A stretch of DNA of 64,000 bases from Paracyclopina nana (lineage: Eukaryota > Arthropoda > Copepoda > Cyclopoida > Cyclopettidae). A program made the translations under genes and the position numbers. Every line of letters starts with the position of its first letter. Position 1 is the first letter of the stretch. The notes beneath the pieces are model-generated. The model searched no databases. It was not told the origin of the DNA and was given only the letters and a program-made list of their open reading frames with translations. Positions 18,191 through 64,000 of the stretch are shown one piece after another. The stretch lies in NCBI GenBank assembly GCA_019096065.1, contig JAGUCH010000008.1, positions 5,771,001-5,835,000 on the forward strand, written 5' to 3'.

Positions 18191-18237
18191 GACTGCATTC
18201 CCAGCCTACAAATGCTCCCAAAACCATCCAATACAAT

Positions 18238-30924: not shown

Positions 30925-32100
30925 CAGAGCAGCCAGCTGAGGTGAGGGGTGCTTGTGAGGCCGTAGGCGTGGCTCATCAAAAATCCTTGGCCATCAGAAT
31001 TTTAGCTGAGGTCTGGTGAACTAGTCCATGGGTTTGCAGTCACTCCCCCAACACACCCTCTTTTCTTTTGAGGGTCTTTCGTTTCCACTGTACTCCATAG
31101 TACAGGCAGCCGAGGTGAGGGGTGCTTGTGGGGCCGTAGGCGTGGCCCATCAAAAATCCTTGGCCATCAGAATTTTGGCTGAGGTCTGGTGAACTAGTCC
31201 ATGGGTTAGCAGCCACGCCTCGGCCCCTCCCTCGTGTCATATTGAAGGTCTTGCGTTTCCACTGTACTCCATAGTACAGGCAGCCGAGGTGAGGGGTGCT
31301 TGTGGGGCCGTAGGCGTGGCCCATCAAAAATCCTTGGCCATCAGAATTTTGGCTGAGGTCTGGTGAACTAGTCCATGGGTTAGCAGCCACGCCTCGGCCC
31401 TCCCTCGTGTCATATTGAAGGTCTTGCGTTTCCACTGTACTCCATAGTACAGGCAGCCGAGGTGAGGGGTGCTTGTGGGGCCGTAGGCGTGGCCCATCAA
31501 AAATCCTTGGCCATCAGAATTTTGGCTGAGGTCTGGTGAACTAGTCCATGGATTAGCAGCCACGCCTCAGCCCCTCCCTCGTGTCATATTGAAGGTCTTG
31601 CGTTTCCACTGTACTCCATAGTACAGGCAGCCGAGGTGAGGGGTGCTTGTGGGGCCGTAGGCGTGGCCCATCAAAAATCCTTGGCCATCAGAATTTTGGC
31701 TGAGGTCTGGTGAACTAGTCCATGGGTTAGCAGCCACGCCTCGGCCCCTCCCTCGTGTCATATTGAAGGTCTTGCGTTTCCACTGTACTCCATAGTACAG
31801 GCAGCCGAGGTGAGGGGTGCTTGTGGGGCCGTAGGCGTGGCCCATCAAAAATCCTTGGCCATCAGAATTTTGGCTGAGGTCTGGTGAACTAGTCCATGGG
31901 TTAGCAGCCACGCCTCAGCCCCTCCCTCGTGTCATATTGAAGGTCTTGCGTTTCCACTGTACTCCATAGTACAGGCAGCCGAGGTGAGGGGTGCTTGTGA
32001 GGCCGTAGGCGTGGCCCATCAAATATCCTTGGCCTCCACAATGTTGGCTGATGACTGGGTATCATGTCGAAGGGTTTGCAGCCATACCTGGCCACGCCTT
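30925..32100 (-). repeat. 174-bp satellite, about seven copies
   Basis: GGCAGCCGAGGTGAGGGGTG starts copies near 31105, 31278, 31452, 31625, 31800 and 31974; a more diverged first copy starts near 30929. Inner copies are almost identical and outer ones decayed, the usual pattern of unequal exchange. 174 bp is close to a nucleosome repeat. Open frames of up to 131 codons on the minus strand follow from the period being divisible by three. Confidence 0.93.
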
Positions 32101-32299
32101 CATTTTAACACAGAACTGGCGCTGAAAATATCTTTTTTTTTTATATCTCAAGCAAAGAAATAAGGGTAATTTTACCTTTTTCTCTTTGAATTTGGCATCT
32201 AGGCTCCTTTTAGTTCCGGCGCCTTTTTTTTGTGAATTACGGCCCGTTTTCCTCCAGAATTTAGCCAATTTCTCATGGATTGTTTCCATGGCAATCTTC

Positions 32300-34406: not shown

Positions 34407-37400
34407 TTACAGCAGCCATAAAAGGCAGAAAGAGATGCCACCTAAAAGAATAATAAAAGCTGTGAAACATTGGCTAAAAGCCAATGGCTGACCACTGTAA
34501 TCAGGACAAACTTGAGGCTGGGTTTCATATCTTTTCACACTGACTTTAAACTCTCCATTTTCCTTCAGTTTGTTCATGTGATACCAGAATGCATCAAAGT
34601 AAGGGGATTCTTTTTGTATGCCATAAGCAAATTGCACTGGGAAATATGCAACTGGTACATCCACAATTTTGCAATCAATGTAGTAACTGTATGATCTTGA
34701 GGAGTAGTAATTATCAAAAAGTGCATATCCAGATTGAGATAAAATGTATTCACTCAATTCCTTTTTGACCTAGAATGACAATAAATTATTTTCTAATACA
34801 TAGCACAAAAGTTTTAGAAAATGATAAAAGTATTCATGAAATTATCTTTTTCCTAAAGTAGGTGTCTTACTTTATAATTGAGACATCACTTCAATAGATA
34901 TTTTGCTTAAATATTTTGTCCTTTCATTGATATGATGCAACCTAAGATTGGGTTTTATGGGCTAAATGTTTGTTTTTGCTGAGTTAGATTATGACTTAAT
35001 GAAAGTGAGACTGTGTCATGCTAAAGCAATCATTGGGCCAAAGTACATAAAACGTTACTAATAAGCTAGATGTGAAATCATACTATGGAGTCTACATAAA
35101 CACATACATTAAAGTATGATGTGTCTGCTCTAAGATTACCGGGATGTGTTGGCGCAAAAGCAACTCTCCCAAAAGTGTCATCACTAACCCAACCAGAATT
35201 TTGCCGAAATTATCGGTTAATATTCGGGACCATTTTGATATCAAATTTGATCTTGAATACTTTGCGAATAGGGGTTTAATCCGTGACGGAATTCATTGCT
35301 GAGAAATTGATTATCTCATGAAAAGTAACTGGAATTCAATGTTGATTACTTCGAATTATTTCATATGCTTGGCCACTTTCAGCAGAATATTCAGGAACTT
35401 TTCAGGAACTTTTCAGGAATTGATTTCAGTTAATATTCAAGGACTTGATTTCAGTTATATTCAAGGACCTGTCAAAAATTAATTTTTTGGGGAGCTTTCT
35501 AGCTTTTTGATTAAGCTTTCTCTTTCTTTAGACTATGATGGATTTTAAGTGAAAGAAAGAAAGTTAGAAAAGCTAGAAAGAAAGTTTACCCATGGTGGAT
35601 TCGAACCCATGACCCTCAGATTTGGAATCCAGCGCCTTGCCTCTAGACCACAGATGTCCCACTCTGATTTGGGCTTTTTTTAGCTATAATATTGTGCAGA
35701 ACATACTCTAGATGGAGCTAGCTTTAATTTTTAGAGTACTTGGAAATGTCTTTTAAGTCCAGTTGTCACTGAATAGTTTTTGAACTTGAACTGAAATCAT
35801 TCTTGAAAAGTTATTGACATGAACACTCCTGAATTGTAATTGAATATTCAAGTTTCATTCATTATTGAAAAGCTACTGAACATAATCTCTTGCATAGTTC
35901 TTGAATTGTCAAGAAGCTTTTGTTGCTGAAAAGTTGCTGAAATGAACATTACTGAATAGTTCTTGAAAAATTAAGCATAATATATTGTTGAAAAGTTGAT
36001 GATTGAAAGTTGTTGAATAGTTCTTGAATTATCAAAAAGTATTCATTATTGAAAAGTTGTTGAATTGAACATTACTGAATAGTTCTTGAATAGTCAAGAA
36101 GTATTCATTGTTGAAAAGTTGCTGAAATCAAAGTTTCTGAATAGTCAAGTCATATTCATTATTGAAAAGTTACTGAGCTAAACCTATTGAATAGTTACCG
36201 AGCAGTCAATAGCTTTTCACACTGAGAAATTGTTGAAAAGTTATTGAGCTTAAAGTTCCTGATTTGTTCCCAAGCACTCGAGAAGTTTTCATCAATGAAA
36301 AGCTCCCGAAAAGCTCATTTTGCCAATTCGGGAACTATTCAGGCCCGAATCGGAAACTAAAATTCTGGTTGGGAAAGCATCTCTTGCAAAAGTGTCACTA
36401 ACTCTCACTATAAGAAGCATAGTGTCATTATTGATGGCGCTCATTTTTAAAAAAAGGGCTCTTTTCTAAGTGCATTTAAAAAACAGTTTTATGATAAAAA
36501 ACTTTAAGTAAGTGTTATTTTCCTGCTGTTAATGGTAAATTGGTAAAAACCTGTCAAAATATTTTTCTCACCTTTGGGTAAGAGTCAGCATATGGCTCAA
36601 TGCGTTCTTTGTAGATTCTTTGCAATATTTCGCTACTACTGTACCTAAATGTATCCATGTAAGATGTTCCAGGTTGAACAACCAGCTAAAAAATGAAGTA
36701 CATTTTACTGAAGCTACATCTGACAGAAGATGTCCCCCTTACTTTGACATCGGTTTTTGTCAAGAGTTCTTCCAGAGAATTAAATGGCAACACCATTGTT
36801 CTCACTGCTAAGTAGGATATGACCATTGCTTCCCAATGCCAAAAGACAAGAGTGCCACCCATCATAATAGCAAAGAAAGCAATCCTGTTGTGAATTGTCT
36901 CAGGTGTATGACTCCAAGGTTTTGCAATCAACATGGCCCCACCCACAAAGCAAAAAGACTTGGTCAATGAAAATTCATCATGAGCTGGCTCAGCCCTTCC
37001 AAAATACATAAGTGAAGCTATGACAAAAGGAGTTGTCACAATGAACACAGCCAATACACCCCAAGATGTCCAAGTCAGTGGGTCAAAATAAGCCATCCAA
37101 TTGAGTGAATCTGCAGGATTGACCACAAACAATCTTTGGTGACTTTCAGCAATTGGAACCAAGAAATCTACAGCTTGACTCCTAATTTGAGTTACAGTGA
37201 ATTCCACTGGGGCAATATCTACTTCATCTTCTAATAATTGCCCTAAAAAGACAGCAACATATAATCTTATGTAGTAGTGGTATTTTAAAGGATTTGGTAA
37301 ATTAAAAAGCTAAATTTGTTATGAGGCTACAACATAATGCAATGAAACAATCAAATTCTTTGGAGTGACTTTGACTTTGAAGGAATAATGTTCACTGCAG

Positions 37401-49059: not shown

Positions 49060-50074
49060 AAGCCTTAAAAGCAGTAAATCCAACATTAATTCTTCTACGA
49101 ATTGACTAATTTACCTTACATGAGGTTTATTGCTTCATTGCTAATGAATTGGTGTGCGACGGTCACACCCTCTGAAGCCTAGGATGGTTAGCATCGGCTT
49201 CATGGTCGCGGTACCGTTCGCAGCCTCCGGGTGCTGGCCGGATGTCTACCCGCCTTGGACCCAAAGCCGCAGCCTCGGTGCTCCAACTCTGGCGAGATAC
49301 ATCACATGGCAAGCTTCAGTGCTGTAGACCTGTGATTGGGCCTCCTATCCAAGTCCTCAGCGGCCTTAACAGCATCAGGTTAGGATGCATAACTGCCCAG
49401 GAAACCTCTATACAAGTTATGGTCGAACAAAATCCAACAAGGTTGTCTTATTCACTCGGCTTTTAACACCACACAAATTAATGGCAGCAAATACAAAGAA
49501 ATAAGTACTGCAGTAAATATTCTTGTGGCCATCTTCTTCATGCCTCAGCACACTTTGGAGAACTTTGGTGGGACAATAGCAGGGCAGAGCTCACTCAATG
49601 GGCCATGTGCACTAGGTCCATGTCTTGTTTCTCTGAAGTCCCCCATCGAACTCCTCGAGTATTCTCCTTCTTCTCCCCTCGATCCATCGCAGCAAGTTCC
49701 ATCAGCTTCCATCTGCTTCTCTCCGTTATCATGCAGCTGCAGGTCCTCTCTGTGTAGCAGCTAGCGACTCCTCCACACAATGGCTAGCAACTTCTCCACT
49801 CAAGGTCAGGTGAATTGCCATAGGTAAGGCTCAACGCATAGGTAGTAGCAGCAGCAGCAGCAACAATCAGAGAGTTGGAGGAGATGAAAAGGTGTTTTTA
49901 AGAAAGGAGGTTTTGTGATTTGGAGGTGGTGACGTAGCGGTGAATGGGCAACCTTCCGGACTTCTGGCGGCTCCACGGGCTCCACGGTTTCCACAGGTTC
50001 CACTGGAGGGGTCCAATCAAGTCCTATTCTAATCGTAACGTGCACCAGAGACATGATGTACTTATTGCCCATCA
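49060..50074. other. Flank of the retroelement; possible LTR
   Basis: This ~1 kb has higher GC content than the region to its left and no convincing gene. Short low-complexity parts include a CAG/GCAGCA run near 49845 and the CCACGG/CCACAGG repeats at 49970-50010. By position it is downstream of the envelope-like gene and could be the 3' LTR; the 5' partner would lie outside the window, so this cannot be tested here. Confidence 0.35.
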
Positions 50075-50090
50075 TTCCCCGGCCCTAACT
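50075..50090 (-). other. Candidate polypurine tract
   Basis: On the minus strand, downstream of the envelope-like stop, AGTTAGGGCCGGGGAA is directly followed by TGATGG, a possible TG start of an LTR. The tract is interrupted by pyrimidines. Weak support. Confidence 0.2.
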
Positions 50091-50178
50091 TTTTCAGCTT
50101 TTGAAATAGTTTTATGCTCTAAAAATATAAAAAAAGGTGTCATTGATCGCTTACATCACATTAAGGTTGATACAGTTA

Positions 50179-52065
50179 TTATACTAACGTCGCGCCTCCC
50201 AGGCCACCCATTCGCATAGTAAGGCGCTGATTTTGGTCAGCATCTTTCTTGCGATCTCCTCTATTGTAACGAAGCCGTGAGCGGGACGTATTAGGTCTCA
50301 CATAGCCTCCATCATCATAACATCGGCTGCATACTCGCCGCCTTTTCCAAATCAATATGCCCATACACGTGAATCCCAGTGCTGCAGACAATAGGCTCAC
50401 CGTCAGGATTATTTCCCAATTATTGAATAAACCTCCAAGTTCATCTTCAGGGAATTTTGTAAAGAACTTCACCATATCACTTTCCCAAGGAGAGTCCTCG
50501 TATCCAGTACTTTGAGTTCCAAGGGAAACTTTACAATTGCTAAGGATCTGATAGGATCCTGGTTCCAATACCATCGAGTTCTTGAAGTCATTTAAACAAG
50601 TCCTATTAATCATTGCACTTGAGACCAAATTTAAGAACCCTTTATAATTTGCACATCCCACATCAGTGAGTGTGTTAGTTTTAAGTGGCTCTAATTCACA
50701 GGCGTCAAAAGGGTCACCCAGAGCTAGCCCTAAAAGTACTTTAGCACAGTGTTGGACTCCTTCTGTCAAGTCAAAGTCCTTGTTTTCACACACGGTTAAG
50801 TTATGGTCATGAACGAAGCAATCACTATAGATGGGTATTTCCCGAGACACAAACACTAGATCATTTCGGCGGGTCAAATACCTATCATGCAGTAAGAATC
50901 CGTTTTTGCTTCGTGACACAATATGATATGTGACCTCAGGGGTAGGGTCCATTTCTTTATACCCAACTATTCCCTGAGTGACAAAGTCTCCACTCTGCTC
51001 AGTGTTCGCCAAAGGTTCATAAACATTAGTAATAGTGGCCGCATTTCTGTCACTATTATGCGCCAGAGTTGGTATGCTGAACCGTGTGCCTGCCTGTCCA
51101 AAATTTCTGGCAAATTGCACAACTGTGTCAGCACATGACAATACTTGCTGCAGATCATTTGGTATTAATCCAGACTTCAAAAAGACCTTGCTAAAACCTT
51201 TCAATAGTCGAAAGGCCAAAGAAACTTTCGGTGGTACTCTCAGTGGAGTGGTATTTGCTATCATGCCATCGGTGAATTTTGTCGATTTACCTGATTCTGC
51301 TAGGGCCATCACGGCGTTGTAGGCCTTTTCAAGGAAGCTTTTCCTCCCAGACAATTCAGATTTGACAAAGTCCTTATGGGTGATGACAAAGTCATTTTGA
51401 ACACATATTGTTGCCTTCCCATCACTGTGTGGTGCATGGGCTTTAACTGACGTCATGGTCCTCGGCCCTTGTCCCACAGTGAAATACCCCGTGATACACG
51501 GGTAACCTGCAATTATCTCATCATCCGGTTTTTTCTCATACCCCACTTGAGGAAATGTGGTTTGCCCATCCAAGGACATAGGTACCTCATTGACGATCCG
51601 AAACTTTACACATAAAGTTACCTTAGTGGCAAGAGGGCTTTCCTTTGCCGTATAACGTAATAGTTCTAGAAAAACGTCCATGTCTTCATAAGTTTTAGGG
51701 GCAAATGGTACAAACCCTTGACGTTTGGAACAAGCTTTGTCGATGGTGTTAGGGGTACTCTCTTCTCCAACTGCCAACATATTCCCAATATGGACCAAGT
51801 CCTCCTTGTCCTTAACTTCTTTTACCACGGTGTCAATATTATTCAGGACGCCAATTGTTGATTGCAAAAGGCCACTGTAATCCTTCGTATCTAACACCAT
51901 AGCCTTTTTCACCATTCTAGGATGATGGACCACTCTAACTGGAACTAGGGCATGTCCGGAATGGCAAAGTGCCTCATCCAGTACGAACTGAGTATTTGGG
52001 TAGTTGGACAGGCCCCAAGTGCCAGATCCCAAAAGGGTGAGTATGAAGGCCAATTCAAACGACAT
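50179..52065 (-). CDS. Envelope-like type I membrane glycoprotein of the retroelement
   Basis: An uninterrupted 628-codon ORF. The N-terminus is a signal peptide (FELAFILTLLGSGTWG). A ~560-residue ectodomain follows, with many cysteines and N-glycosylation sequons (NTT, NLT, NRT). Near the C-terminus is one transmembrane helix (IILTVSLLSAALGFTCMGIL), then a basic tail starting KRRR. This is the layout of retroviral and errantivirus-type envelope proteins. Its position downstream of pol on the same strand also fits env. I do not recognise the family: I found no RXXR-type furin site followed by a clear fusion peptide, and I cannot place it among baculovirus F-like, chuvirus-like or other captured glycoproteins. 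A TTCCTTATAA motif 55-65 bp before the start suggests its own promoter. The ORF has no breaks. Confidence 0.7.
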   Translation of the reverse strand: MSFELAFILTLLGSGTWGLSNYPNTQFVLDEALCHSGHALVPVRVVHHPRMVKKAMVLDTKDYSGLLQSTIGVLNNIDTVVKEVKDKEDLVHIGNMLAVGEESTPNTIDKACSKRQGFVPFAPKTYEDMDVFLELLRYTAKESPLATKVTLCVKFRIVNEVPMSLDGQTTFPQVGYEKKPDDEIIAGYPCITGYFTVGQGPRTMTSVKAHAPHSDGKATICVQNDFVITHKDFVKSELSGRKSFLEKAYNAVMALAESGKSTKFTDGMIANTTPLRVPPKVSLAFRLLKGFSKVFLKSGLIPNDLQQVLSCADTVVQFARNFGQAGTRFSIPTLAHNSDRNAATITNVYEPLANTEQSGDFVTQGIVGYKEMDPTPEVTYHIVSRSKNGFLLHDRYLTRRNDLVFVSREIPIYSDCFVHDHNLTVCENKDFDLTEGVQHCAKVLLGLALGDPFDACELEPLKTNTLTDVGCANYKGFLNLVSSAMINRTCLNDFKNSMVLEPGSYQILSNCKVSLGTQSTGYEDSPWESDMVKFFTKFPEDELGGLFNNWEIILTVSLLSAALGFTCMGILIWKRRRVCSRCYDDGGYVRPNTSRSRLRYNRGDRKKDADQNQRLTMRMGGLGGATLV

Positions 52066-52118
52066 CTTACCAGCACAAACTCTGATCAGAAACTATTTGG
52101 GCCCCAAGACCGCTAACT

Positions 52119-52130
52119 TTCCTTATAAAC
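52119..52130 (-). promoter_or_regulatory. TATA-like promoter element before the envelope-like gene
   Basis: TTTATAAGGAA on the minus strand lies about 60 bases upstream of the ATG at 52065. The same ten bases (TTCCTTATAA on plus) precede the neighbouring 427-residue ORF. It suggests that each gene is transcribed separately. Confidence 0.45.
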
Positions 52131-52395
52131 CCAGACAAGTATGGGCACGCCACCTTACTATGTCTAGACATTCTTTGCTTTTTTCCATTGGTTTTTTATT
52201 ATCATAGCATGTCGACATGTATGGTAAAAAGTTAAGAGTATTGGCCCACAACCAAGTATTTTATCAATATGTACAATTCGATTCTGAAGGGTAATTTCAT
52301 TTTTTAGAACTGCCCGACAAATCCATTAATCGCCTCAGTGAATACCTTGATGTCGCTGGGGGTCATTTCCTCCATTTTAGCCTGGAGGAGATAGT

Positions 52396-53679
52396 TCACA
52401 CGCTCCTTATTCTTATCGACTTTGGAGCGCTTAGCGTGCAAAATGTCTGGTCCATTCGTTCCTGCGCCAAAGGGCGCCCGCGCGCTACATCGGCGTACAG
52501 TCTAGGTCCTCGCCTTGGTTTTTGTTGCCAAGACTTCTCCACAAACGCAGCTAGTTTTTGGGGCCTGGCCCCGGCTGTGTACCTCACGCATTGCGGATAT
52601 GTCCCAATGGCTCGATCGACAAACTGGGCTACCATGGTAGGCAGGAGTGCGGTCATATCGATCTTCACGTCCAATTTTCGTGGTGCTTGAGCCACACCAT
52701 TGTTAAGGCAGGACGGCGGTCCCACATACAGTTGCAAGTAAGGCGACGTCAAATCATGGAACATCCGCGGATCCCAAAATGTTGAGTCCAATGTTGGCAT
52801 GATCTGAATGCAGCCTCGCTTGGTATAATGTTTTGAGACTACCACAGGGAGTTGAGCTCCACCCTGTCCACGGATTCCATGAACATAATACCCAACAGCT
52901 GTTGGGCTCTGGACGGCAGACCAACTCCTGACATTGGCCAACTTATGGACATTCTCGTCATATTCCATCTTGTCAGGCAAGTTGTAGACTGGTAGATTGT
53001 CTAGCATCGGAAATATAACAAGAAAATCGGGAATCTCCCCTCCTTTACTCACTGGCTCGATAATCAATTCAATGCAGTCAAAGTTTTTCACCTTCAATGG
53101 CCTACGAGGCTCGGTCCGTTCATAGGGTTCTCCATTTATCCTAATCGTTAGGTCAAAAGGCACCTCCTTTCCAACAGTCATGACCTCTTTCGTAGCTATC
53201 TTCAACAGGCTTGCATCATAATGCTGCTGTATAGTAGCTCTGGTCCGGCTCGCCTCCCTCGCATAGGCCTGTAGACCCTCCATGTGGGGAGGCCTGATCA
53301 AATCCTCAAATGGCAATGGGTACCCCAAACTGGAGGATACCCTTTCCAATGGGACCTCGAGGGGTTCCTCTTGGTCCTGGTGCCTAGTTGTCTGATTCTG
53401 GGCTTGATTCTCAATATTGACAGCAGGCATGTTGCGATCCATAACTGGCTCATCATCCTTTAGGAGCTCACTAACCTCATGCTCGTTGAACTCTCCAGTC
53501 TTATCAGTCTCCATCATGGAGACCAATGCAGATTCTCCTTCCATGGATTCGGTGATCAGAGACATCCTTAGGTTATCGAGGCTATTCAAGCTATCGCTCA
53601 TTTCCAGACTGTTGCTGTAGGGCCGTAAACTGCCCTTTTTATACGCATCTTTACAGGTATGCCCCACACTCTCGGGCAT
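52396..53679 (-). CDS. Unrecognised 427-residue retroelement protein
   Basis: One long open frame lies between the plus-strand accessory genes and the envelope-like gene. An alternative start is Met 27 (MSDSLNSLDN). The first ~110 residues are acidic and probably disordered; the next ~250 have alternating hydrophobic strands (for example CIELIIEPV, DFLVIFPML, YLQLYVGPP, LDVKIDMTALLP), suggesting a beta-rich domain; the C-terminus is basic (KPRRGPRLYADVARGRP). There is no signal peptide, membrane helix, zinc knuckle or protease motif. The beta-rich core with a basic tail would suit a structural (capsid or matrix) or movement-type protein, but that is a guess from composition. It stops 330 bp before the envelope-like gene starts. 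Confidence 0.55.
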   Translation of the reverse strand: MPESVGHTCKDAYKKGSLRPYSNSLEMSDSLNSLDNLRMSLITESMEGESALVSMMETDKTGEFNEHEVSELLKDDEPVMDRNMPAVNIENQAQNQTTRHQDQEEPLEVPLERVSSSLGYPLPFEDLIRPPHMEGLQAYAREASRTRATIQQHYDASLLKIATKEVMTVGKEVPFDLTIRINGEPYERTEPRRPLKVKNFDCIELIIEPVSKGGEIPDFLVIFPMLDNLPVYNLPDKMEYDENVHKLANVRSWSAVQSPTAVGYYVHGIRGQGGAQLPVVVSKHYTKRGCIQIMPTLDSTFWDPRMFHDLTSPYLQLYVGPPSCLNNGVAQAPRKLDVKIDMTALLPTMVAQFVDRAIGTYPQCVRYTAGARPQKLAAFVEKSWQQKPRRGPRLYADVARGRPLAQERMDQTFCTLSAPKSIRIRSV

Positions 53680-53767
53680 TTAAATGCGTGGGTTGTCCCT
53701 TTTTTAAAAAACCCAAGGTCATTTTTTGTCTAGGTAAAAAAAAGAACAAGGTAACAGGACTTATACC

Positions 53768-53781
53768 ACTTCCTTATAAGA
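53768..53781. promoter_or_regulatory. Palindromic TATA-like element in a divergent promoter region
   Basis: TTCCTTATAAG lies in the 290-bp gap between the minus-strand ORF (start 53679) and the plus-strand gene (start 53970). CTTATAAG is its own complement, so it could serve either side. It is ~95 bp from the minus start and ~190 bp from the plus start. The minus strand also has GTGGTATAAG beside it. Confidence 0.45.
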
Positions 53782-53969
53782 TGGGCGCGTGCGCGCACGC
53801 TCATCGTTAAGTTGCACGGACATTTTTGACTTCCTAGGTCGAGAAACGTAGCGAGGGTGCAACAGGCAGTTGCAACTCTCAGCTTTCACTTAATGTTGAT
53901 CATTCTCCCATCGGACTTCGTCCAAGCTGGTCACTTTTCTAGAGATATTCCAATCCCAATCAACCCGCG

Positions 53970-55021
53970 ATGGTCATTTTAGCCTGGGTTTCTCTAACTC
54001 CAGAGGGCAGCTCTACAGAGGCTCCCACTGAGGTTCCAATCCAGCCATCAACGGTGGATCCTGCGCTAGTGGATTCTCAAACCACGGGCCCAGTAGGTCC
54101 TACTGTTGCTATTCCTGAGAGTGGCATTTCTGAAGCTGAGGGTGGACCTGGATTTGACCCAGCTCCTGTCGATCCCTTTGAAGTGGAGGTGTTTAACCCC
54201 CGAGATTTAATGCCAGCGGTACCAAATGGTTATCGTCCCGTTGCCCCTCAGAGGGACTGGATCGATGAGGTTTTCAATTATCACCGATATGGTGTAATGG
54301 GGTGGATCGGTCTTGGAGCGTCCATTGGGATGGCTTTGGTAAGTTCAACCTTATAGCTAGTTTAGCAACTATGGCCAAACTTTTATTTACCACCTTCTTT
54401 CTTACAGATTTTGCTTGGCATGTTGGTGTACTTCTGCGTGTGGACGTCACGATGGTGCCGAAGGTTCGTGGCCACGTTTCGAGCTATTCGTACGGAGTCA
54501 TCGACTGCAAGTGGAGCCATGCAAATGCTTCCCACAAAGGCCCCATCAGAGCATGCAGCGGTATTTCACTGCTGTACCCCAGAGGTCCGAGCTTTGCCAC
54601 CAGCCCCGATTATGCGTGACCCTGATGTCCATTCGCTCCAAATGGCAATGGCTGCCATGGACCCCTATGGAACACTACGCCGGAATCCCAGCATCATGTC
54701 CGGGCTGGCCCACATCTATGACGTCCCTAATCCCAAGGGCTGGGTAAGGACCTATCAATTTATGAACTGTAAACAGGTTACTCATGTACTCTTTTTCATG
54801 CACCTTTTCAGGTACCTGTTACTGAAGGGTGCGGGCCGCGGACTTTGAAGAGACGATCTCGCCGGGCTCGAGCCCGAGATAACCGTCGCTTGGATTCGGC
54901 AGCAGATTCCATTCCGGACAAAGACGAAGTCAATGAGGCTGAACCTCTCTCAATCGCAGATGAGGACCAGGATTCGGCTGGATCAAAGGCTTCCCAAGAC
55001 GTCAACAGCGATGCCAACTAA
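53970..55021 (+). CDS. Accessory single-pass membrane protein, three exons, antisense to pol and env
   Basis: Exons 53970-54338, 54408-54743 and 54812-55021 are joined in phase 0 by introns of 69 and 68 nt with good GTAAG donors and pyrimidine-AG acceptors, giving ~304 residues. Exon 1 encodes an acidic, Pro/Thr/Glu-rich N-terminus without a clear signal peptide and the first half of a hydrophobic segment (GWIGLGASIGMAL). Exon 2 continues it (ILLGMLVYFCVW), followed by an Arg-rich stretch. Exon 3 has a basic patch (LKRRSRRARARDNRR) and an acidic tail. The helix is split exactly by the intron. An AATAAA signal follows at 55322. No homologue is recognised. A signal-anchor protein with the N-terminus outside is plausible. 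Confidence 0.6.
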
Positions 55022-55321
55022 GGATCGCCACAAACTTATTGCAAGACGAGAAACGCTCTCTTTTCGCACGTATTTAAGCGCGTTTTCTGTAACTTTTGCA
55101 CTTTGTTCTTCTTATCGCGTGCCAATTCTCACTTTATACTTGCATTTCCCGCAGTCTTCGCGGACTTTTCCGCTTTTTCGAGATCTCACAGACTTTTCGA
55201 GGCTTCGCAGACTTCTTTAAAGCCGGCTTTTTGCACTTGCACTCGTCTTGTTTTTATTTTGATCTCAAAGCTTCCAATATACTCGAGTATATACTATAGT
55301 ACTTGTATTCTATATATATGT

Positions 55322-55327
55322 AATAAA
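55322..55327 (+). terminator. Polyadenylation signal of the first accessory gene
   Basis: AATAAA lies about 300 bp after the stop of the plus-strand accessory gene and before the next plus-strand gene. It supports separate transcription of the two. Confidence 0.4.
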
Positions 55328-55502
55328 GAATTCGACTTCAAGTGGGGTAGCAGGTATTAGCGAAGCCGTTATCTTCATCTGACAGCGCTCCCAGGCTTTA
55401 CGTAGAGGCGCGTAATAAAAAGAGGCTTTTTTACACGAAATTTGGCCGATTTCAGACCAGATTTTTCTGGTAGCGCGCCTTGTTTACTAAAAAGTCCAAA
55501 AC

Positions 55503-56026
55503 ATGGCGGGCTTCCTACACGGCTTGTTCGTAAGTTTTTATTTCGATTAAAATCCGGTGAATCCTTTCGCTAAACTGTATCTTTTTCATTGGGAATGCAG
55601 AATCCTTCTACAACAACGGTGGCGCCAGCCACCGAGGCTCCCGTAGGGGCGCCCCCCGCGGCCGAGTCCGCGGCGGGGTGGCCCCAGCCACCTGCGGCCC
55701 CGCCCGCAGCCCCTTTGGGCCATCAGGAGGCGTGCCCTCCCTGCCCCGTTCAGGGCTTCGTAAGTGCATTATTCGTTATCTATTTGGTCAAAGGTCGACT
55801 TTTTCACGTATTACAGGCCGAAGAGATCCTCTAGGGCGTGGCCCTGAACGTGGCAGGGGCAGCCACGTATTACGTGGTGGTGCTCCCCGCCCTCGTCTGG
55901 GTCCACCGGACGAAGCCGAGAGGCCTCTACCGGCTTGTCAGCCGCGTGTGGGCGGAGCCCGAGGACCTCCCCCGCATCAGTGCGTGGGTCCTGGCGGAGG
56001 CGGACCCCCTCGAAGGAGTCGTCTAG
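55503..56026 (+). CDS. Second accessory membrane protein, GC-rich, three exons (tentative)
   Basis: Exon 1 (55503-55529) encodes MAGFLHGLF. Exon 2 (55601-55759) encodes a Pro/Ala-rich segment ending CPPCPVQGF. Two acceptors are possible for exon 3. The one at 55834 gives a hydrophobic helix (NVAGAATYYVVVLPALVWVH) and a ~35-residue tail ending near 56026, about 125 residues in all. The one at 55816 ends after five codons. The first choice mirrors the neighbouring accessory gene (Pro-rich N-terminus, membrane helix, charged tail) and has an intron of the same size (75 nt). Base composition is far more GC-rich than the surroundings. A third frame, rich in Gly, Arg and Pro, is also open here. Function unknown. 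Confidence 0.4.
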
Positions 56027-56049
56027 TAAGTCTAACTTAATCACTTAAG

Positions 56050-59000
56050 CCATCACGGCTTCACTATATTCATCTTGTCTTTTGCAGAACTCGTCGTGTT
56101 CCCGGTAGGCCACCGCACCGGCCAGGGCTGGCCCCAACGTGGCCCAAGGCCAGCCCGCCCCCCTCGCCAGGAGGCCTCCCATTGGGACAATAAAGTCCAC
56201 GTTCATTGTACTTTTGTGTCTACTGTGTTTACCGCAACTCATTTCGCGTTTACCTCAGCAGATAGCTCAGCCTTATGAAGCTCAGCACCTTTCTAGTCAA
56301 GTTCAGCAGTTCATTATCATAGCCAAGCACATTTCGAGTCCAATTTTTTACATTTCATGGCCAAAAGGACCGTAGACCATATCTCAGGTGTCAAGAATTG
56401 CATTTTAATTGCATAATTAATCATTAGCGAATCATTAGCGGCCCAAATCCACAGATTCGGGCCTGTAAATAAGCTAGCATTCCAGCTCGACCTTGACGGC
56501 CTTGACACTGCAAACGATGCTTCAATGTTCAAGAAAAGCGTTTACTATAGCCCTGCATTCCAGCTCGGGCTTGATGCAGCACCATATTTGAGTGTCTGCG
56601 ATTACTACCGGCCAAGCGTTGGTGCTTATGGGCTACCAATGCCAATTTGGCATCCTTTTTTCCTTGGGCATTCCGGCTCGGCCTTGAGTGCGGCGAAGGA
56701 AACGTAGTCCCTACAGGACTGGAAAACCGGCCGTATGTCATTGCACATAGCAAAAGCAAGCTCAAGCACTAGGCAATGGCACAATATTCTTTTCCATATC
56801 AGGCTAGAAGACGTGTATTTTTCATTTTCTCACATGTCAGTCTACAATGTGTGCTGACCTAGCTTGTTTTGCTAGTGCTGTGTTTAGCGTAAATTGAATT
56901 CTCCACCAAAAAAGAGGGGATTCATGTGGCAACTGCAAGATAGCCACATTTCAGCACTTCTTTTATTTAACAATATGCCTAATCTTTGTGCACTTTGAAC
57001 CTTTTCTTCTGTTAGTCCATCTGGCGATCATTAGCGGTATCATTATAACATTAGTCATTTTCATTCTCTTGACTTTTATGCAACGTTTTATTTTATTCCT
57101 TGTACCCGCCTAATAAATCCCGGAATTTGGGTCACCACTCGAGTCAAGTATGGCCATTTTTGAGTTTAGATAAGTTCAAAAACCTTCCCAGGTGAATTGT
57201 AGGTGCACCGGCGGTTCCACTCTTCATTGTTCGTTTTAGCCTTGGGCAAAACGTTTTTAGTTCGTGGTTAGGCGCATGGTGGCGCCACCATTCTACATCT
57301 CCAAGCGAAGCCGCTCAAACTGGATTTTTCTAGTGTGGGAGCGTCTCTGGATTTTTGTTCCATAACAACTTTTTGCCCCCCTTGGAGTCGGGTATCTGTT
57401 CAACAGAAACTGGCTCAGCGTCTTTGCGCCATGCAACTCACATTTCAGTCTATCTTGCTCAAATGTTTTTTGTCTAGCCATTTTGAACAGACTCATCGAT
57501 TACGTTTTTATCTGTTATCACTGAATTGCATAGCTATTATAGCTCTGCATTCCAGCTCGGTCTTGATGCGTGCATCAAGTTCGGGTGCTCATAGCCGAAA
57601 TTAATTTAAAAGATTGAGGTTATCAGCACCGATCTTTTCAGCTAATTTCGGTTAGCACTAATAATAAGATCCATAAAGCAAATTTTGCACCTTTATGTGC
57701 TAGTGTTCAGATTTATAGTTTTTGTGGCACTTTGCCATTTCCAGTTTTATCTAGAAATTTTGTTTACAATACTTTCTCAGAGCGCGAGTGCGCTCAAAAT
57801 TTGTGAAATTTTTGGGGCGCAGGCTGCATTTCCTGCGGCTACGTATATATACTCCCCCCTCCACAATTTTCTGCATTTTGTGGGAACTGTAGTGAGCAGT
57901 CACACAAAATTCAGGTAAGTATGTTTTCGAATCTTTAACTATAAAAGATTTAGCAGCTAGGCTAATTTTATTCAATTTTTTATTTGTACTATGGCGCCCG
58001 TGGGCACCCTCCATGATATCAAAAACCTAAATCGTGCCACTGTAAGGAAGGAAGGTCGGCACATACTAAATTTTATTTTTATTTAGAATTACGATTTCCA
58101 AAACAAGTTCAGTTGTCACACATAGACTGTTGTGGCAATCGAACTTAAAATGGTATTTTATGGGGAAACACTTGTTCAACCCCCAAAATACCCCAGTGGT
58201 ATCCAAAGCTGAAGAATTCACCAGCATATAGGATTTTTGTTGCCTTTATTAGCCACAAGGGAGCGGCCTATTCCAATAGAGAGTGGGTCCCCACATTTTG
58301 TTGAGGCAAGAAGGCCATAGTTTGGGCTGATTATTCGCCCAGGCACAAAGCTGTACTTAGTATTTCAAAATCCCTTTTAGGGAGATGAATCCCATTTTTG
58401 TACAGATTTCCATGTTCCATCCTACTCAAAGTCCGGAGGCGTCACGCCTAGACCTGCGTTATGCAACCAGGTCAAGGTCGAGACACTCTGATATTATAGG
58501 CACAGTAGTCGTTGCAACAGAGTTTTTGTTTTATGGCATATGCTACTGTAGTATCGTTTCCATGCCAGAACATGTGTGATTTATAAACGTTCTTTTTTTT
58601 TTATCGATGCCCAATCCTCATTTCAGATGTTGTGCATTTTCCTAACTTCTTCTGAAAGTTTTCAATATCGTTCCAAGATTTTATATAGTAATGCGGCCAA
58701 CACAAGTCCTCATGCGTATTGTGAGGTTTATTGTGTCCCACTTGCACAGTGCCTAGTGCCAACTTTTGCTGTACTAAGGTACGAATGTCCCAGTAGCTAT
58801 CAATCCACGCAAGGCATGGAGTGGATAGCGGTTCCATTTGGACATAGCTCAGTGGAGCTTTAACCATAGTTTTCAAAGCATATCTATTCAGATGGGGCAT
58901 TAGCCCCTCTGGTATTACGCCCATCTGCAACTTCCCTCTTGCATGGCGTGTTCATAGTACTTTACTGTATATAACTTATATAACAGTTAACTTTATTCAG

Positions 59001-59160
59001 GCCAATCGGCCCATCGTCTATTGTAAGCTTGGCCTCCTACTATAGTAGTAAGGGGCAAGCACACGTAAGTACCGGTCAAATTTTGATTTGCATCGGTATT
59101 TGTCAGGAAACAGGACAAAATTATTTGTCCCATCAATATTGTAAAAATAACCTACGCAAA
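56050..59160. other. Non-coding or unassigned central part of the retroelement
   Basis: No convincing large gene is present. Four spaced copies of CATTCCAGCTCGGYCTTGA-like sequence occur near 56478, 56557, 56680 and 57550. A TATATATA box at ~57844 is followed by a GTAAGT donor after AATTCAG at ~57913, which could be a plus-strand promoter with a 5' leader intron. A minus-strand frame at 58601-58930 (109 codons) has a balanced composition but no recognised feature. Confidence 0.4.
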
Positions 59161-59166
59161 CTTCAT

Positions 59167-59548
59167 TTATTTTGTCAAAGCAAGCGAGGTTTGGTTTGTT
59201 GTTGGATTGAACAATCCCTGGAGGAAGTCCAAATCCAGTGCCTTGTGGCTTCCATCATTTTTATACATACTTCTAGAACCGCTAACGAACTGCAGAGAGT
59301 ATGTTTCGTTAGTTGTTTTCTTGCTGTCAATGTACTGTTCAGCAACTTATCACCTTTATGCATATTGTACCTTACTGGCGGGCATGTGAAGAGACATTGC
59401 CCGTTCGTATCCATTTCTATGATCTTTTTGGCAAGTGGCCAAATTCAGGTCCGCAATCGACATTTTGCATTAACTTACTTTTGGGTGCGCTTGATTGGTA
59501 AAACGGTGCGCCCATATTGGACTGACAAAGTAAAGGTAGTGACCCCAT
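59167..59548 (-). CDS. Small spliced candidate gene downstream of pol
   Basis: Starting at an ATG near 59548, three short exons can be joined in frame across introns of ~61 and ~86 nt (donors GTAAGTT and GTAAGGT, acceptors ending TCATAG and CTGCAG). The product would be ~75-80 residues. The middle exon has two cysteines (GQCLFTCPP); the last ends FNPTTNQTSLALTK. Intron size matches the two accessory genes on the other strand. There is no similarity I can name, and the overlapping plus-strand open frame of 173 codons makes the call uncertain. Confidence 0.3.
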
Positions 59549-59597
59549 AAAATATGGGCACTAAGATTACCGTCATCACGTCCTTTCTTACGAATCT

Positions 59598-62500
59598 CTA
59601 TTTAAACTTCTTAAAAGCTAGCTTGTATAGGTCATCATAGGTGAGACGCAGCCGCTTCATTTCATTTATGTTGCTATCATCTTGGTGATCCATGCCAGTC
59701 GCTTTAAGAAACTGAATATAATCAGGGACTGCAGCCATGTTTTTATTCAGTTTCCAATTAGGAATTACCTCTTCTAGTAACTCTCTCTCTTTTTGGTCTG
59801 GCCTTTGGTTCGTATTTGTAAACCTAACACGGGCGAATTCCTTGTCCTCCCGATCTAAAGGAGCTATTCGTGGAATATTAGGGAAGTATTTTTGTTCTTT
59901 ACCAGCTTTACTTTTCTCTTTCCCATACTTTCTTATGCCCGCTAACCTTCTGTAATCTACAGTTTCTTTTCTCTCCCGCAGTTGTCGTCTGGGAAGGATC
60001 CGTATTGGAGTGGGCTCACTAATCTCAGGTTCAACTGTTGGTTGGACAGCGGCCGAGGATTCTGGTTCCTTTGGTTCGGCGAATGATGTGGCTGCCGAAC
60101 TACTCGGCTGGTCAGAAGACACCAAAAGGTTCGTGTCAAGGAGCTGTTGAACATTCTGTGAAGGACTTGTATCCTGTTCAGTTGTCAATGCTGCTTCGGA
60201 ACGAGTCAATGCTTCAGAGGGATCAGGCTGAGCAATCGCAGGAAGACCCGCAGGTACGTTCTTTTTATTATACTTTTGAAACCCTGCCAGGGAGCGATAA
60301 TTAACGTTTTTTCTTCTTCTTAGGTTATGAGGAAGAAAACTTAATGGAGACAACTTTTCTGGTTCATACGGAGCCCGTACAACAGCCTCAGGTGGCTTCT
60401 GAGTACCCGGTTGTGGAACTACTGGGCCAGTTTGCCTGACAGTGGGGTGTGCAACCCCAGGAGTAGCTTGATGAGCAATGTGCTCCTTTTCAGTCATAGC
60501 CAGGTCACCCAAAGGTGTAACCTTTGCCGAAAAGTGCTCAAGTACGTTTGTGCTTGGCACAGTTTGTGGTACTCCCGCATTTGGTAACTCACTATTTCTT
60601 GGTTGCAAATCAGGTTTTCTGACCGGACTTTTCATTATAGTATACCGAACTTGAGGCTCCCCTCCTTCAGCTCCATAAATCTCCGGTTTCGGGGCACTGG
60701 GCCCTTCCATAGGATTATCGATTGGTGGAGAGGGAGGCCGTTTACGTGGTGAGAGTTCTAACTGGCGTCGTACAATATCGATTGCTTTTTGAACATTCTG
60801 TTTAATGCTTTTTGTCAGCGGTGTACGCCGCAGATTTTTACGAGCAGTATAATAAATTGTAGTTGTGTCATCACTATCACTACTTTCATGTTCATCGTCG
60901 TGTGTATTTCCGCCGAATGGATCAGTAGGCAGTGCTAATTGCATACTTTCCAGGCCAGCAGATAAAGATTCTAGGTCAGTGTCAAATTTGGAAGGTGCGA
61001 TGAGAGATGCTGCTTTTTCAACAATCTCCTCTATATTATCATTGTCCTTATTAGGAGTTGCGGACATACTTTGGTCAGGAGTGTGATATTTCTCCAGACT
61101 TTCAGGTATATCTGGCACACGTTGATCACGGTATTGGCCACGAAAGGCCCACTTTACAGGGCTGACCCCTGCAAGTGTCCCTTCACTGACGTTCGAGCGA
61201 TCAGGAGTACTAATATGGTCAGGTTTGACACTTGGTAAATTCGGGTATAATCTTTCTTGTTGGGCCATTTCAGCAAAAGTAGGAGGGCCACGTTGGCTCA
61301 AGGCCAGCATGTCCTCATAAAATGCTTCATTGGGCCCTGTATTTGCACTTAGTGCAATTGCTTGTTCAATAAAATCATCAGTGCCAGTGTCAGACAAAGA
61401 ATCACTTGCTTCTTTGTGGAGAATATTATTACCAGCATTGTCAGCTAGGTATTTTTCTTCTAACTTCTTACGGTCATATTGTTCCCATTGCTTTTGCACG
61501 AGTTGTTTATTTTCCTCCTGTATTCGCAAAATATCTGAGGGCTTAAACAAGCTCGCTGCCTTTTGCATGAGAATAGAACCAGAGCGCTTATAGGTTTGGT
61601 GAATCGCACTTGGCTCTGTGTCCATTGATGTGGACTGTGAAATCAATGAACTTTGCGAGGCCACTATACTAGAGGCCTTTGTATGACCCCGCAAACTATA
61701 ATCATGACTTTCAGGGGCTGCCCCTTCAAGAAATTCGATAACCTCATTCCTTGCTTTTTTACGTAGAATTTCTTCCGGAGTGTAAGGTCGTTTCAAGAGG
61801 TTGGACAACTTTTCCGGAAGAAATCTATATAGTTCATGGAATCGATATAACTTGACATGATCTAAGCTTACTTCACGAGTAAGCCCATCATAAAGGTATG
61901 GCTTTACAGTCACAGTTGAATGCTGTCCAATGTCAATAACTTCAAACAAATCATCCATAAATTTATACCGTTGTTTATTTATGGGATGTTTTATAACTAA
62001 CACTAATGATCCAATCTCTGGTTTAAAGGAAGGTCTTTCAGTAGCCTTCATTTTTTCTAAGTGGAACTGTTCTTCTAGATCATATTCACGCATGCGTTGA
62101 CGCCATTCGGCTTTATGAATTTTGTCCTCGCTTTCACTAAGTATTTCAAATACATCCCGTCCTAAATGATAGAACGGCATTTTATCGAAAAATAACGAAA
62201 AAGGTGTGGGGGTGATCTTCACCCCTTTATCATCAGTATATGCCAAATAAGTAAGAGGGCGATTATTTATTGCGTAAATAGAAGTCTTAAACACATCGCA
62301 TAACCTCATATTGTATGAGTTAGAGTTTAGGACTAAAGCACTCCTTATTATTCGTATAGCATTTTCAGCGTAAGCGTTCGAATGCTTGTATGGCGATAAA
62401 GTTCGGTAATGACATAACTCCTTAATTTTATAACGATCAACAAGGCGTTGGAGGGCCTTATTAGTCGTTAGCTGGGCACCATTATCTGCAAGTAATGTTT

Positions 62501-64000
62501 TTGGCACCCCAAACAAAGAAATTACTTCTTCCATAGCATTCGCTACCTGCTTATATTTAGCATCCAATAGTGGTTTAGCAATTATCATCTTAGAATAAAC
62601 ATCGACAAATACTAACAGGTCTTTTGCGGAAGACCCTTTGACTAAAGTGTCATCGAACTTGGCCAAATCAATCATTACCAATTCCCATGGCTGAGTCGGG
62701 ATGCGGAAACGCCCCTTCCCAACAAACCTAGTATTAGCTTGGCGGTATAAAGCACAATGCATGCACGCACCAATAATAATACGACTGATTCTGGCTGAGT
62801 AAGTTGAATACATAGATTGAGTAAAAAGGGTATTGGTCTTTTTACTCCCCAAATGGTTATGTAACAGATGAATACATGCCATAAGGTACACACAGTTAGG
62901 CATGCTCATATACACTTTTGTATTAGTAGCAACACTGAAGGGTAACTTTACATTCTTGCGTATAACCAACAAGGCACCATCAAGAACTCGGTATTTTACC
63001 GCAACATCTAATGGTACTTTCTCAGGAGGCGAAAGCATAATTAAATTTATTATCTTTTGTGTTTCTTCACAGTTTTGTTGCAACTTAATGAGTAGGTTGC
63101 GTGTAATTCCTGGTAAATGTGGCGATATTCGCCGTTTAACAGTTACTGTATCTACTCTTAAGTTATTTTCTATATGATTTACTGGTGAGTCAAAATCAGC
63201 TTCCCCATGAAACGAATGAGATAGTTTTGAAAGTATCTCGTCCTCAAGATATTCATCATCATCATGTTTTGCTTGAAGTAAGGTTGACGTGTCGTCGTGC
63301 ACAAATGGCGGCTTCGTGCCGATCATGTCAACCCATTTGTCATTTAGGCAATGCAACCTTTTCTGGAGTAGAGTCTTACTCATAGTTCCAGAATTCACAA
63401 GTGTATCATACACGTGTGTAAGTAATTCCTGGGTTGTAAGCACCTTATCTTTGATCGCATCGGGTAGAGGGTATTTATTTGAATAAATATCCTTAGTAAT
63501 CTGTCCCGCAATAGAGTAAGGCGCATAAAATACAGTTTCACCTTCTGGTGTTTGATGGTATTTATTTAATAATACATCAACTACTTCTACCTCTGTGCGA
63601 GGTACAGCCCTCAATTTCCATGCTACAGGCAGGGAATAAATACGAGCTGCTAATCTATGAGTAAATGCATCTTTACCAGTAAACGAACTAGCAAGTACGC
63701 TAGCGATAGATAAGCAATCAGTAACTATTACCAACCGCTCATAAGCGAATAGTATGCTTTTAAAATGGTTTATCATTGTTAAAACTCCTAATGCTTCACG
63801 TTGAAATGAGTGGTATGAGAGGCAAACCGATAGAGGAAAGCGTGCGCTGTGTGCACCAACACACACAGCTTTCCCATCCTCATTCACCTCCATTAATAAG
63901 GCTGAAGTACTTATTACCCCAGAATCAACCACTAAATAACCTTCTTTAAAACGTGGTAGTGCCAACGACATACCCGTTTTAATCTCGTCTATTACTTTAT
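59598..64000 (-). CDS. Retroelement Pol: RNase H and integrase with long C-terminal extension (5' partial)
   Basis: The frame is open to the window edge, so reverse transcriptase should lie beyond it. Numbering from the Met at 63971: RNase H at ~1-135 with acidic residues in VVDSG (D16), QREAL (E59), VTDCL (D85) and VVDVL (D132). Integrase follows: zinc-binding HLLHNHLGSKKT (H368/H373) with CMHC (C403, C406); catalytic D435 (MIDLAK), D496 (LADNGA) and E536 (AENAIR), a D-x39-E spacing longer than the usual x35. An SH3-like C-terminal part lies at ~654-710. The RNase H-integrase order fits Ty3/BEL/retrovirus-type pol, not copia. Residues ~711-1457 are a hydrophilic, Ser/Pro-rich extension with two copies of a basic motif (VNYRSLAGFQKY, VDYRRLAGIRKY). 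No breaks are seen. Confidence 0.85.
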   Translation of the reverse strand, partial: KVIDEIKTGMSLALPRFKEGYLVVDSGVISTSALLMEVNEDGKAVCVGAHSARFPLSVCLSYHSFQREALGVLTMINHFKSILFAYERLVIVTDCLSIASVLASSFTGKDAFTHRLAARIYSLPVAWKLRAVPRTEVEVVDVLLNKYHQTPEGETVFYAPYSIAGQITKDIYSNKYPLPDAIKDKVLTTQELLTHVYDTLVNSGTMSKTLLQKRLHCLNDKWVDMIGTKPPFVHDDTSTLLQAKHDDDEYLEDEILSKLSHSFHGEADFDSPVNHIENNLRVDTVTVKRRISPHLPGITRNLLIKLQQNCEETQKIINLIMLSPPEKVPLDVAVKYRVLDGALLVIRKNVKLPFSVATNTKVYMSMPNCVYLMACIHLLHNHLGSKKTNTLFTQSMYSTYSARISRIIIGACMHCALYRQANTRFVGKGRFRIPTQPWELVMIDLAKFDDTLVKGSSAKDLLVFVDVYSKMIIAKPLLDAKYKQVANAMEEVISLFGVPKTLLADNGAQLTTNKALQRLVDRYKIKELCHYRTLSPYKHSNAYAENAIRIIRSALVLNSNSYNMRLCDVFKTSIYAINNRPLTYLAYTDDKGVKITPTPFSLFFDKMPFYHLGRDVFEILSESEDKIHKAEWRQRMREYDLEEQFHLEKMKATERPSFKPEIGSLVLVIKHPINKQRYKFMDDLFEVIDIGQHSTVTVKPYLYDGLTREVSLDHVKLYRFHELYRFLPEKLSNLLKRPYTPEEILRKKARNEVIEFLEGAAPESHDYSLRGHTKASSIVASQSSLISQSTSMDTEPSAIHQTYKRSGSILMQKAASLFKPSDILRIQEENKQLVQKQWEQYDRKKLEEKYLADNAGNNILHKEASDSLSDTGTDDFIEQAIALSANTGPNEAFYEDMLALSQRGPPTFAEMAQQERLYPNLPSVKPDHISTPDRSNVSEGTLAGVSPVKWAFRGQYRDQRVPDIPESLEKYHTPDQSMSATPNKDNDNIEEIVEKAASLIAPSKFDTDLESLSAGLESMQLALPTDPFGGNTHDDEHESSDSDDTTTIYYTARKNLRRTPLTKSIKQNVQKAIDIVRRQLELSPRKRPPSPPIDNPMEGPSAPKPEIYGAEGGEPQVRYTIMKSPVRKPDLQPRNSELPNAGVPQTVPSTNVLEHFSAKVTPLGDLAMTEKEHIAHQATPGVAHPTVRQTGPVVPQPGTQKPPEAVVRAPYEPEKLSPLSFLPHNLRRRKNVNYRSLAGFQKYNKKNVPAGLPAIAQPDPSEALTRSEAALTTEQDTSPSQNVQQLLDTNLLVSSDQPSSSAATSFAEPKEPESSAAVQPTVEPEISEPTPIRILPRRQLRERKETVDYRRLAGIRKYGKEKSKAGKEQKYFPNIPRIAPLDREDKEFARVRFTNTNQRPDQKERELLEEVIPNWKLNKNMAAVPDYIQFLKATGMDHQDDSNINEMKRLRLTYDDLYKLAFKKFK

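Follow-up and report, generated by a model that had tools for sequence, protein, structure and literature searches.

The stretch of DNA analysed here (the window) comprises 64,000 nucleotides (nt) of contig JAGUCH010000008.1 of the cyclopoid copepod Paracyclopina nana (C8:5771001-5835000), and its right-hand part belongs to a long terminal repeat (LTR) retroelement that lies on the minus strand and is 22,925 bp long. The element is read, with a probability of about 0.8, as a recently active proviral retroelement of the Ty3 type, 22.9 kb in length, which codes on both strands; the expression of its genes and the roles of its proteins are proposed from sequence features. A sequence-only reading of the window had listed five objects in this region, namely minus-strand open reading frames (ORFs) for pol, for a protein of 427 residues (ORF427) and for an env-like protein, and two spliced plus-strand genes for membrane proteins, here called P1 and P2. 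All five are present. The same reading placed the start of the element at 50080, whereas the actual start is at 49150 and the other end lies 8 kb past the window end, at C8:5843074.

The LTRs are 925 bp long, run from TG to CA and are identical at 925/925 positions. The 3′ LTR occupies 49150..50074 (-) and the 5′ LTR, right of the window, C8:5842150-5843074 (-); they enclose an internal part of 21,075 bp, and the insertion is bordered on both sides by a 4-bp target duplication (GAAT/GAAT). A polypurine-like tract, read from the printed sequence, adjoins the 3′ LTR at 50075..50086 (-). A primer-site-like stretch starting with TGG lies 3 nt from the 5′ LTR, on its inner side, and its complement reads like the 3′ end of a tRNA. 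In the sense direction, the order is 5′ LTR, gag, pol, the antisense genes P1 and P2, ORF427, the env-like gene and 3′ LTR. In a second copy, the LTR pair is identical at 924/925 positions and the target duplication is GATT/GATT. Paired TG..CA LTRs with a short target duplication, the latter read in these two copies, are a feature of the Metaviridae. The sequence-only reading had pointed past position 64000 for reverse transcriptase (RT), gag and a matching 5′ LTR, and all three are found there.

Of 126 candidate LTR matches, 40 were scored; two of these stand alone and the other 38 make up 19 pairs. The span of a pair is 22.9-23.4 kb in 14 of the 19 and longer in the others, and the two LTRs score equal bits against the query in 15 pairs, which is consistent with recent insertion. 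The window copy is considered young because its LTRs are identical.

The genes are parts of one repeated unit. Searches with the element proteins covered the whole 92-Mb, 10-contig assembly; copy counts are lower bounds, and env matches were counted only when at least 1.4 kb long (n = 58). All five companions of env (ORF427, antisense P1, antisense P2, pol, and gag) were present in the same order and on the same strands at 38 of these 58 matches. Spacing is near-constant in 34 of the 38 full units, where env is preceded by pol at a distance of 9.4-10.9 kb and by gag at 14.0-16.6 kb. One or more parts went undetected at the other 20 matches, eight of which lack P1 and gag only. Seven of these eight are lineage-2 copies, where lineage-1 queries fail, and the eighth, a lineage-1 env, probably borrows P2 and pol from a neighbouring lineage-2 copy.

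When the unit is approached from pol, sense ORF427 and antisense P2 lie within 16 kb downstream in 62 of 67 matches. The remaining five consist of one with P2 only, two lineage-3 copies (L039 and L040) with a diverged env, and two others; an ORF427-like and a P1-like gene could be read in L039. P1 matches are antisense and just before ORF427 in 59/59 cases, some of which are fragments of one copy, and P2 matches are antisense beside ORF427 in 77/79, the other two having no ORF427 match within 10 kb. The recurrence of the same genes, which the sequence-only reading had expected of a single element, is thus borne out, and the outcomes it had named as contrary, pol copies devoid of these neighbours and ordinary host genes on the plus strand, are not the pattern seen among the copies. 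P1 and P2 as host genes or as a nested insertion are ruled out by their recurrence beside ORF427 and by the pol-neighbour counts.

Several lineages of the element are present in the assembly. Identity of env to the window copy is 65% in lineage 1b, 45% in lineage 2, 27% in lineage 3, and 28% in lineage 4, and identity of ORF427 is 44% in lineage 2 and 23-24% in lineages 3 and 4. Between lineages 1 and 4, pol is 44% identical over a 1040-residue alignment. The lineages are regarded as old because env, ORF427, and pol have diverged among them.

The Ty3-type assignment comes from pol. The gene occupies 59598..63998 (-), is open at the window edge and contains, within the window, the end of RNase H, integrase, the integrase C-terminus, and a tail of about 700 amino acids (aa). 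Right of the window, pol continues with RT, an unrecognised stretch of about 450 aa and protease, followed by gag and the 5′ LTR. Pfam recognised RVT_1 above its cut-off, while RNase H, protease, and integrase matched weakly and below theirs, as did RT_RNaseH and rve in the window part; the resulting order of protease, RT, RNase H, and integrase is that of the Metaviridae. The closest PDB match of RT is Ty3 (E 5e-23). Fifteen related proteins were found, all of them distant, with 22-25% identity in the RT region; the best matches carry gypsy-type domains, and 7 of the 15 are moth proteins that bear a Baculo_F env domain (pol identity 23-25%). The protease, RT, and RNase H families matched were all general or of Ty3 type and none was BEL/Pao. 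One RNase H region was matched by Pfam, a degenerate second copy not having been specifically searched for; a dual RNase H has been ascribed to retroviruses (PMC9040795). The gag protein comprises 863 aa, and the zinc-knuckle-like motif CX2CX3HX4C is visible in its translation.

The gag stop codon overlaps an ATG as TAATG in the three copies read (L027:5098-5102 (-), L051, and L052), and this ATG opens pol in two. Read-through in a single gag-pol frame was rejected, since the copies with an open pol (n = 2) start at the ATG overlapping the gag stop. A 131-aa “small ORF” before pol was likewise rejected as a separate gene, since two other copies show it to be a portion of the pol N-terminus. 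Termination-reinitiation at TAATG and a membrane-tethered pol precursor are possible. In those two other copies, the pol N-terminus ahead of the protease has two hydrophobic segments. The stretch of about 450 residues between protease and RT is common to lineages 1 and 4, and no Pfam model recognises it. Lineage 4 carries tandem DUF5662 ORFs directly after pol (L044:156-788 and 961-1680); genome-wide, 14 of 16 DUF5662 matches are followed at 4.6-5.9 kb by a lineage-4 ORF427 match, and the strongest is elsewhere (C2:11424858).

The env-like gene (50179..52065, -) is followed in the sense direction by the 3′ LTR. Its product had been described beforehand as a glycoprotein with a signal peptide and a membrane segment, and that outline holds: the N-terminus is hydrophobic by eye, N-glycosylation motifs are present, 10 cysteines are invariant across six sequences, and one membrane segment near the C-terminus precedes a basic tail. 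Given its place and shape, the entry of enveloped particles is the most likely role for env. ORF427 (52396..53679, -) has 427 aa in the window copy and a 458-aa frame in most copies; its product is probably soluble, with an internal or regulatory role. Neither protein matched a Pfam family, and no homologue at E <= 0.001 was found among the best 7993 candidates by shared words for env, or the best 6268 for ORF427, from 5.8 billion proteins. No IMG/VR match was obtained for env, ORF427 or pol, and the only PDB hit of env was a designed helical bundle at E 0.1. When the env profile was compared with that of three moth Baculo_F proteins (A3), both of them shallow, the probability was 0.1%; neither Pfam nor this comparison points to an env of the Baculo_F/gypsy type, which characterises Errantivirus. 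The element had been proposed as an undescribed lineage, and the searches are in keeping with this in that they returned no close relative and only distant ones of pol, a result of failed searches and not a proof.

Motifs upstream of these two genes bear on how they could be transcribed. The TATA motif was defined as TATA[AT][AGT] and the initiator (Inr) as TCA[GT]T 27-35 nt from TATA, with expectations taken from Markov shuffles. At 7 of 9 sense starts, the ATG of env or of ORF427 has a TATA motif 55-110 nt upstream. Before env, the motif is located at 60-62 nt in lineages 1, 1b, 2, and 4 (TATAAGG at 62 nt in the window copy), in lineage 2 only when counted from the Met aligned with the other lineages, as the motif is 13 nt ahead of the first Met of that frame. 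ORF427 of the window copy has TATA at 99 and 86 nt before its ATG. The exceptions are lineage-3 env (155 nt) and lineage-4 ORF427 (none). TATA together with Inr was found in 2 of 13 windows examined around gene starts (lineage-3 ORF427 and lineage-4 env) against 0.09 expected. In lineages 1, 1b, 3, and 4, ORF427 and env have an AATAAA between them. The TATA and AATAAA motifs together favour separate sense transcription units. The element had earlier been called multi-promoter; the motifs are indeed there, while the use of these promoters is deduced from motifs only.

In the mechanism proposed here, the LTR promoter would yield a full-length sense RNA, serving both as genome and as message for gag and pol, and translation of pol would begin at the stop-start overlap UAAUG. 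ORF427 and env would be transcribed from their own TATA promoters. P1 and P2 would be transcribed off the other strand and spliced, giving small single-pass membrane proteins. The genomic RNA would hold the complement of P1 and P2, whose introns would go unseen by splicing and survive reverse transcription.

The rival that survives best, though an unlikely one, is an ordinary env-bearing Ty3/gypsy element of errantivirus-like type, in which a single LTR promoter and a spliced env message suffice, the TATA motifs are coincidental, and the antisense genes have been added as minor extras. The Ty3-type pol, which among named elements comes closest to those of moths that carry a Baculo_F env (23-25%), agrees with it, and so does the restriction of the TATA-Inr pair to 2 of 13 windows. 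It does not easily accommodate TATA at 60-62 nt before env in 4 of the 5 lineages read, the AATAAA separating ORF427 from env in lineages 1, 1b, 3, and 4, an env unrelated to Baculo_F in profile comparison, or the selection on P1 within lineage 1 and the P1-like gene of four lineages, which are described below.

P1 and P2 are located between pol and ORF427, with introns of the GT..AG type; antisense ORFs between pol and the 3′ LTR are the arrangement of the plant Retand elements. P1 has 304 aa and three exons. Exon 1 (53970..54338, +) encodes a Ser/Thr/Pro-rich ectodomain (33% of the first 90 residues) and the first half of a single membrane segment, exon 2 (54408..54743, +) the second half and the cytoplasmic part, and exon 3 (54812..55021, +) the end of a long tail with the stop codon; AATAAA follows at 55322. 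P2, of about 125 aa, consists of exon 1 (55503..55529, +), the Pro/Ala/Thr-rich exon 2 (55601..55759, +), and exon 3 (55835..56026, +), which contains its one membrane segment and follows an acceptor ending at 55834; AATAAA is at 56189. No Pfam family matched the exons of either gene. P1 and P2 probably act at the membrane, in assembly, shielding or cell-to-cell spread. Between 55816 and 55834, two candidate 3′ splice sites lie 18 nt apart, and the in-frame TAG is kept in 8/8 copies shown; alternative splicing at 55816/55834 would yield a short form and a membrane form of P2. The predicted cytoplasmic tails of P1 share Tyr-Asp-Val in lineages 1, 2, and 4 (IYDVP, VYDVL, and TYDVE), a loose motif, with YEV or YKV in other lineage-1 copies, which might conceivably be a sorting or SH2-type signal.

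All splice sites of P1 and P2 retain GT and AG in 6/6 aligned copies. The ratio of nonsynonymous to synonymous substitution rates (dN/dS) of P1 is 0.10-0.17 in seven comparisons among five lineage-1 copies, the sixth copy (L035), with a disturbed frame and a stop, being omitted; P1 is, by this measure, under purifying selection within lineage 1. For P2, dN/dS is 0.03-0.20 in four comparisons of undisturbed copies and 0.58-0.81 in three comparisons with the frame-disturbed L035, the out-of-frame L033 being omitted. A phase-0 intron (^) interrupts the P1-like membrane segment in lineages 1-4: WIGLGASIGMAL^ILLGML in lineage 1, WIGLAATVTVIL^VLLILT in lineage 2, WTTAAFCTLV^LCLIGIG in lineage 3, and TISFGVWII^IILSALAW in lineage 4. 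The lineage-2 gene matches P1 in sequence marginally (E 0.001), and the genes of lineages 3 and 4 are equated with P1 because they agree with it in position and strand, in general shape and in the intron. Matches to P2 came from lineages 1, 1b, 2, and 4.

The most conserved non-coding part of the element's middle is a block at 57180..57960 (+). At 57844 it contains TATATATA in 5 of 6 aligned copies and, in the sixth, TATATATG, one base off; the splice donor AGGTAAGT is found at 57913 in 6/6. A promoter for the antisense genes is likely, and this block may hold a third such promoter together with a leader exon. Between 56200 and 59600, no frame of at least 60 aa aligned full-length and stop-free across all five compared copies, which indicates no further gene, and an Rfam scan of 49100-64000 gave no match.

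An improbable second rival is that the plus strand gives rise only to non-coding antisense RNA that regulates the element, the frames of P1 and P2 being left untranslated. Antisense RNAs without a protein product are widespread in retroviruses (PMC10186651), and the middle of the element is most strongly conserved in a non-coding block. Against it stand the dN/dS values of P1 and of the undisturbed P2 copies given above, and the membrane segment and intron position of the P1-like gene, which are kept in four lineages.

For a retroelement with an RNA copying step, the expectation is that introns are lost and that all genes stay on one strand. In lineage 4, a sense-strand intron of ORF427 is absent to the base in one of three copies and present in two (L043, L044, and L045), and its loss via a spliced, reverse-transcribed RNA is the simplest reading that this suggests. 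The P1 membrane-segment intron is present throughout the copies read, of which six belong to lineages 1 and 1b, one to lineage 2, two to lineage 3, and two to lineage 4. Retention of antisense introns with loss of the sense intron is the outcome expected if the RNA genome has a single polarity.

These introns also bear on a DNA virus or DNA transposon which acquired a retroelement pol and replicates as DNA, a very improbable account. The layout is DNA-virus-like, with genes on both strands, introns, and internal TATA and poly(A) signals. It is opposed by the LTRs, the 4-bp target duplication, the primer-site-like and polypurine stretches, and the zinc-knuckle-like gag, by the exact absence of an intron, which suggests an RNA step, and by the lack of any DNA-polymerase or DNA-virus capsid family among the proteins scanned. 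Finally, a chance grouping of a piece of pol, an env unrelated to it, and host genes for ordinary membrane proteins would have been a fair default from one window, and can be dismissed now that the same neighbours recur at 62/67 pol matches, all five at 38/58 env matches, within matching LTRs and target duplications, nothing speaking for it after the copy search.

The reading of a proviral Ty3-type element with internal promoters and antisense genes has its own difficulties, and the following observations weigh against it. Env is so labelled for its shape, with no match in Pfam, in the PDB, among proteins or between profiles to back the name, and single-sequence AlphaFold2 models of env and ORF427 had mean predicted local distance difference test (pLDDT) scores of 30.9 and 31.9, were unusable and were set aside. 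The TATA-Inr pair is limited to the two windows named, the lineage-2 env spacing depends on the chosen Met, and the antisense windows (n = 4) contained no TATA-Inr pair and a TATA within 110 nt in one only (lineage 3, start uncertain). Internal poly(A) signals imply that the genomic RNA has to pass them. Two of 6 copies have a disturbed P2 frame, and 1 of 6 has a stop in P1. Exon 3 of P2 requires an unusual acceptor, since the usual one (ending at 55816) meets the conserved TAG. The P1-like genes of lineages 3 and 4 gave no sequence match to P1, and P2 was not detected in lineage 3. The ORF427 intron could instead have been gained in the two copies that have it. The window copy is also imperfect: the frames that had been described as intact are present, but ORF427 stops early against the 458-aa frame, and pol, open in two other copies read, is broken near its start, outside the window. 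This copy may have been mobilised in trans, or the assembly may contain errors.

With these points in the balance, the proviral element is best regarded as a new ambisense, envelope-bearing lineage of the Ty3 type, possibly of family rank. A wider proposal, for which the odds appear about even, is that of a new family-level lineage of reverse-transcribing viruses which would express the provirus as a DNA virus does, with a promoter and a poly(A) signal for each late gene, genes running both ways, and the opposite strand as an intron refuge. It would bring with it new families of env, of ORF427 (capsid-associated or regulatory), and of accessory membrane proteins, all without known relatives, and would have spread very recently in an arthropod genome. 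The Ty3-type lineage described here breaks, in a testable manner, two expectations held of retroelements, intron loss and genes on one strand. Its dozens of near-identical copies offer a live system in which to study how Ty3-type elements gain an envelope, add genes, and are limited in genome size. The lineage also contributes protein families unrecognised by the databases searched.

The host part of the window contains large tandem arrays at 14800-18200, 25185-25830, and 30920-32240, with periods of 23, 18, and 174 bp. The ORFs at 7891-8727 and 36686-37309 are closely similar and lie in duplicated DNA (93% over 300 bp); they may be fragments of ionotropic receptors. Genome-wide, 80 Chitin_bind_4 matches fit an arthropod host. 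A nematode, entertained at first because of a weak DUF1265 match, is the less likely host on this ground; probes for SL1 and for a mite-specific allergen family returned no match, and neither did their controls.

A literature search, conducted largely at title level, returned no animal retroelement in which env occurs together with internal promoters and with spliced membrane-protein genes in antisense. The HBZ gene of human T-cell leukemia virus type 1 (HTLV-1) is spliced. It is driven from the 3′ LTR, whereas here two internal genes encode membrane proteins. What HBZ and other retroviral antisense genes share with P1 and P2 is their location on the opposite strand of the provirus (PMC10186651). 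The comparisons that follow draw, like this one, on the available part of each cited text.

The Metaviridae layout consists of LTRs, gag, pol, and an env-like gene, with an internal region of 3 to more than 15 kb (PMC7879559). The present element resembles the Metaviridae, and Errantivirus among them, in its LTRs, its primer-site-like and polypurine-like stretches, gag, a pol with protease, RT, RNase H, and integrase, and an env-like gene downstream of integrase (PMC7879559). It differs in its internal region of 21 kb, the stretch of about 450 aa between protease and RT, the pol tail of about 700 aa, ORF427, an unrelated env, the opposite-strand genes, and the 22-25% identity between its RT region and the proteins retrieved. 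Plant Retand elements are likewise of Ty3 type and have a long region between pol and the 3′ LTR with antisense coding regions in all cases (PMC11963269). Their antisense ORFs mostly carry a predicted DNA-binding TRP28 domain, and no env is mentioned in the available text (PMC11963269), whereas the element described here is from an arthropod, with intron-containing antisense genes for membrane proteins and an env-like gene in sense.

Among animal elements, Steamer-like Element-1 of the mussel Mytilus chilensis is an LTR retrotransposon with an antisense mRNA, a likeness taken from the title and the start of the abstract (PMC10974842). The planarian Burro elements are giant Ty3/gypsy-like LTR elements with an internal region of up to 25 kb and env homology (PMC6431247). 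A single giant polyprotein includes their env, in frame and flanked by gag and pol, and the word “antisense” is absent from the available text of that paper (PMC6431247). Small membrane proteins are known from insect LTR elements of the MDG1 group, whose sORF2 encodes a small transmembrane protein for cell-to-cell transfer, such proteins passing capsids between cells (PMC11952523). The sORF2 gene lies upstream of gag in elements without env (PMC11952523), whereas P1 and P2 are antisense and stand alongside an env-like gene.

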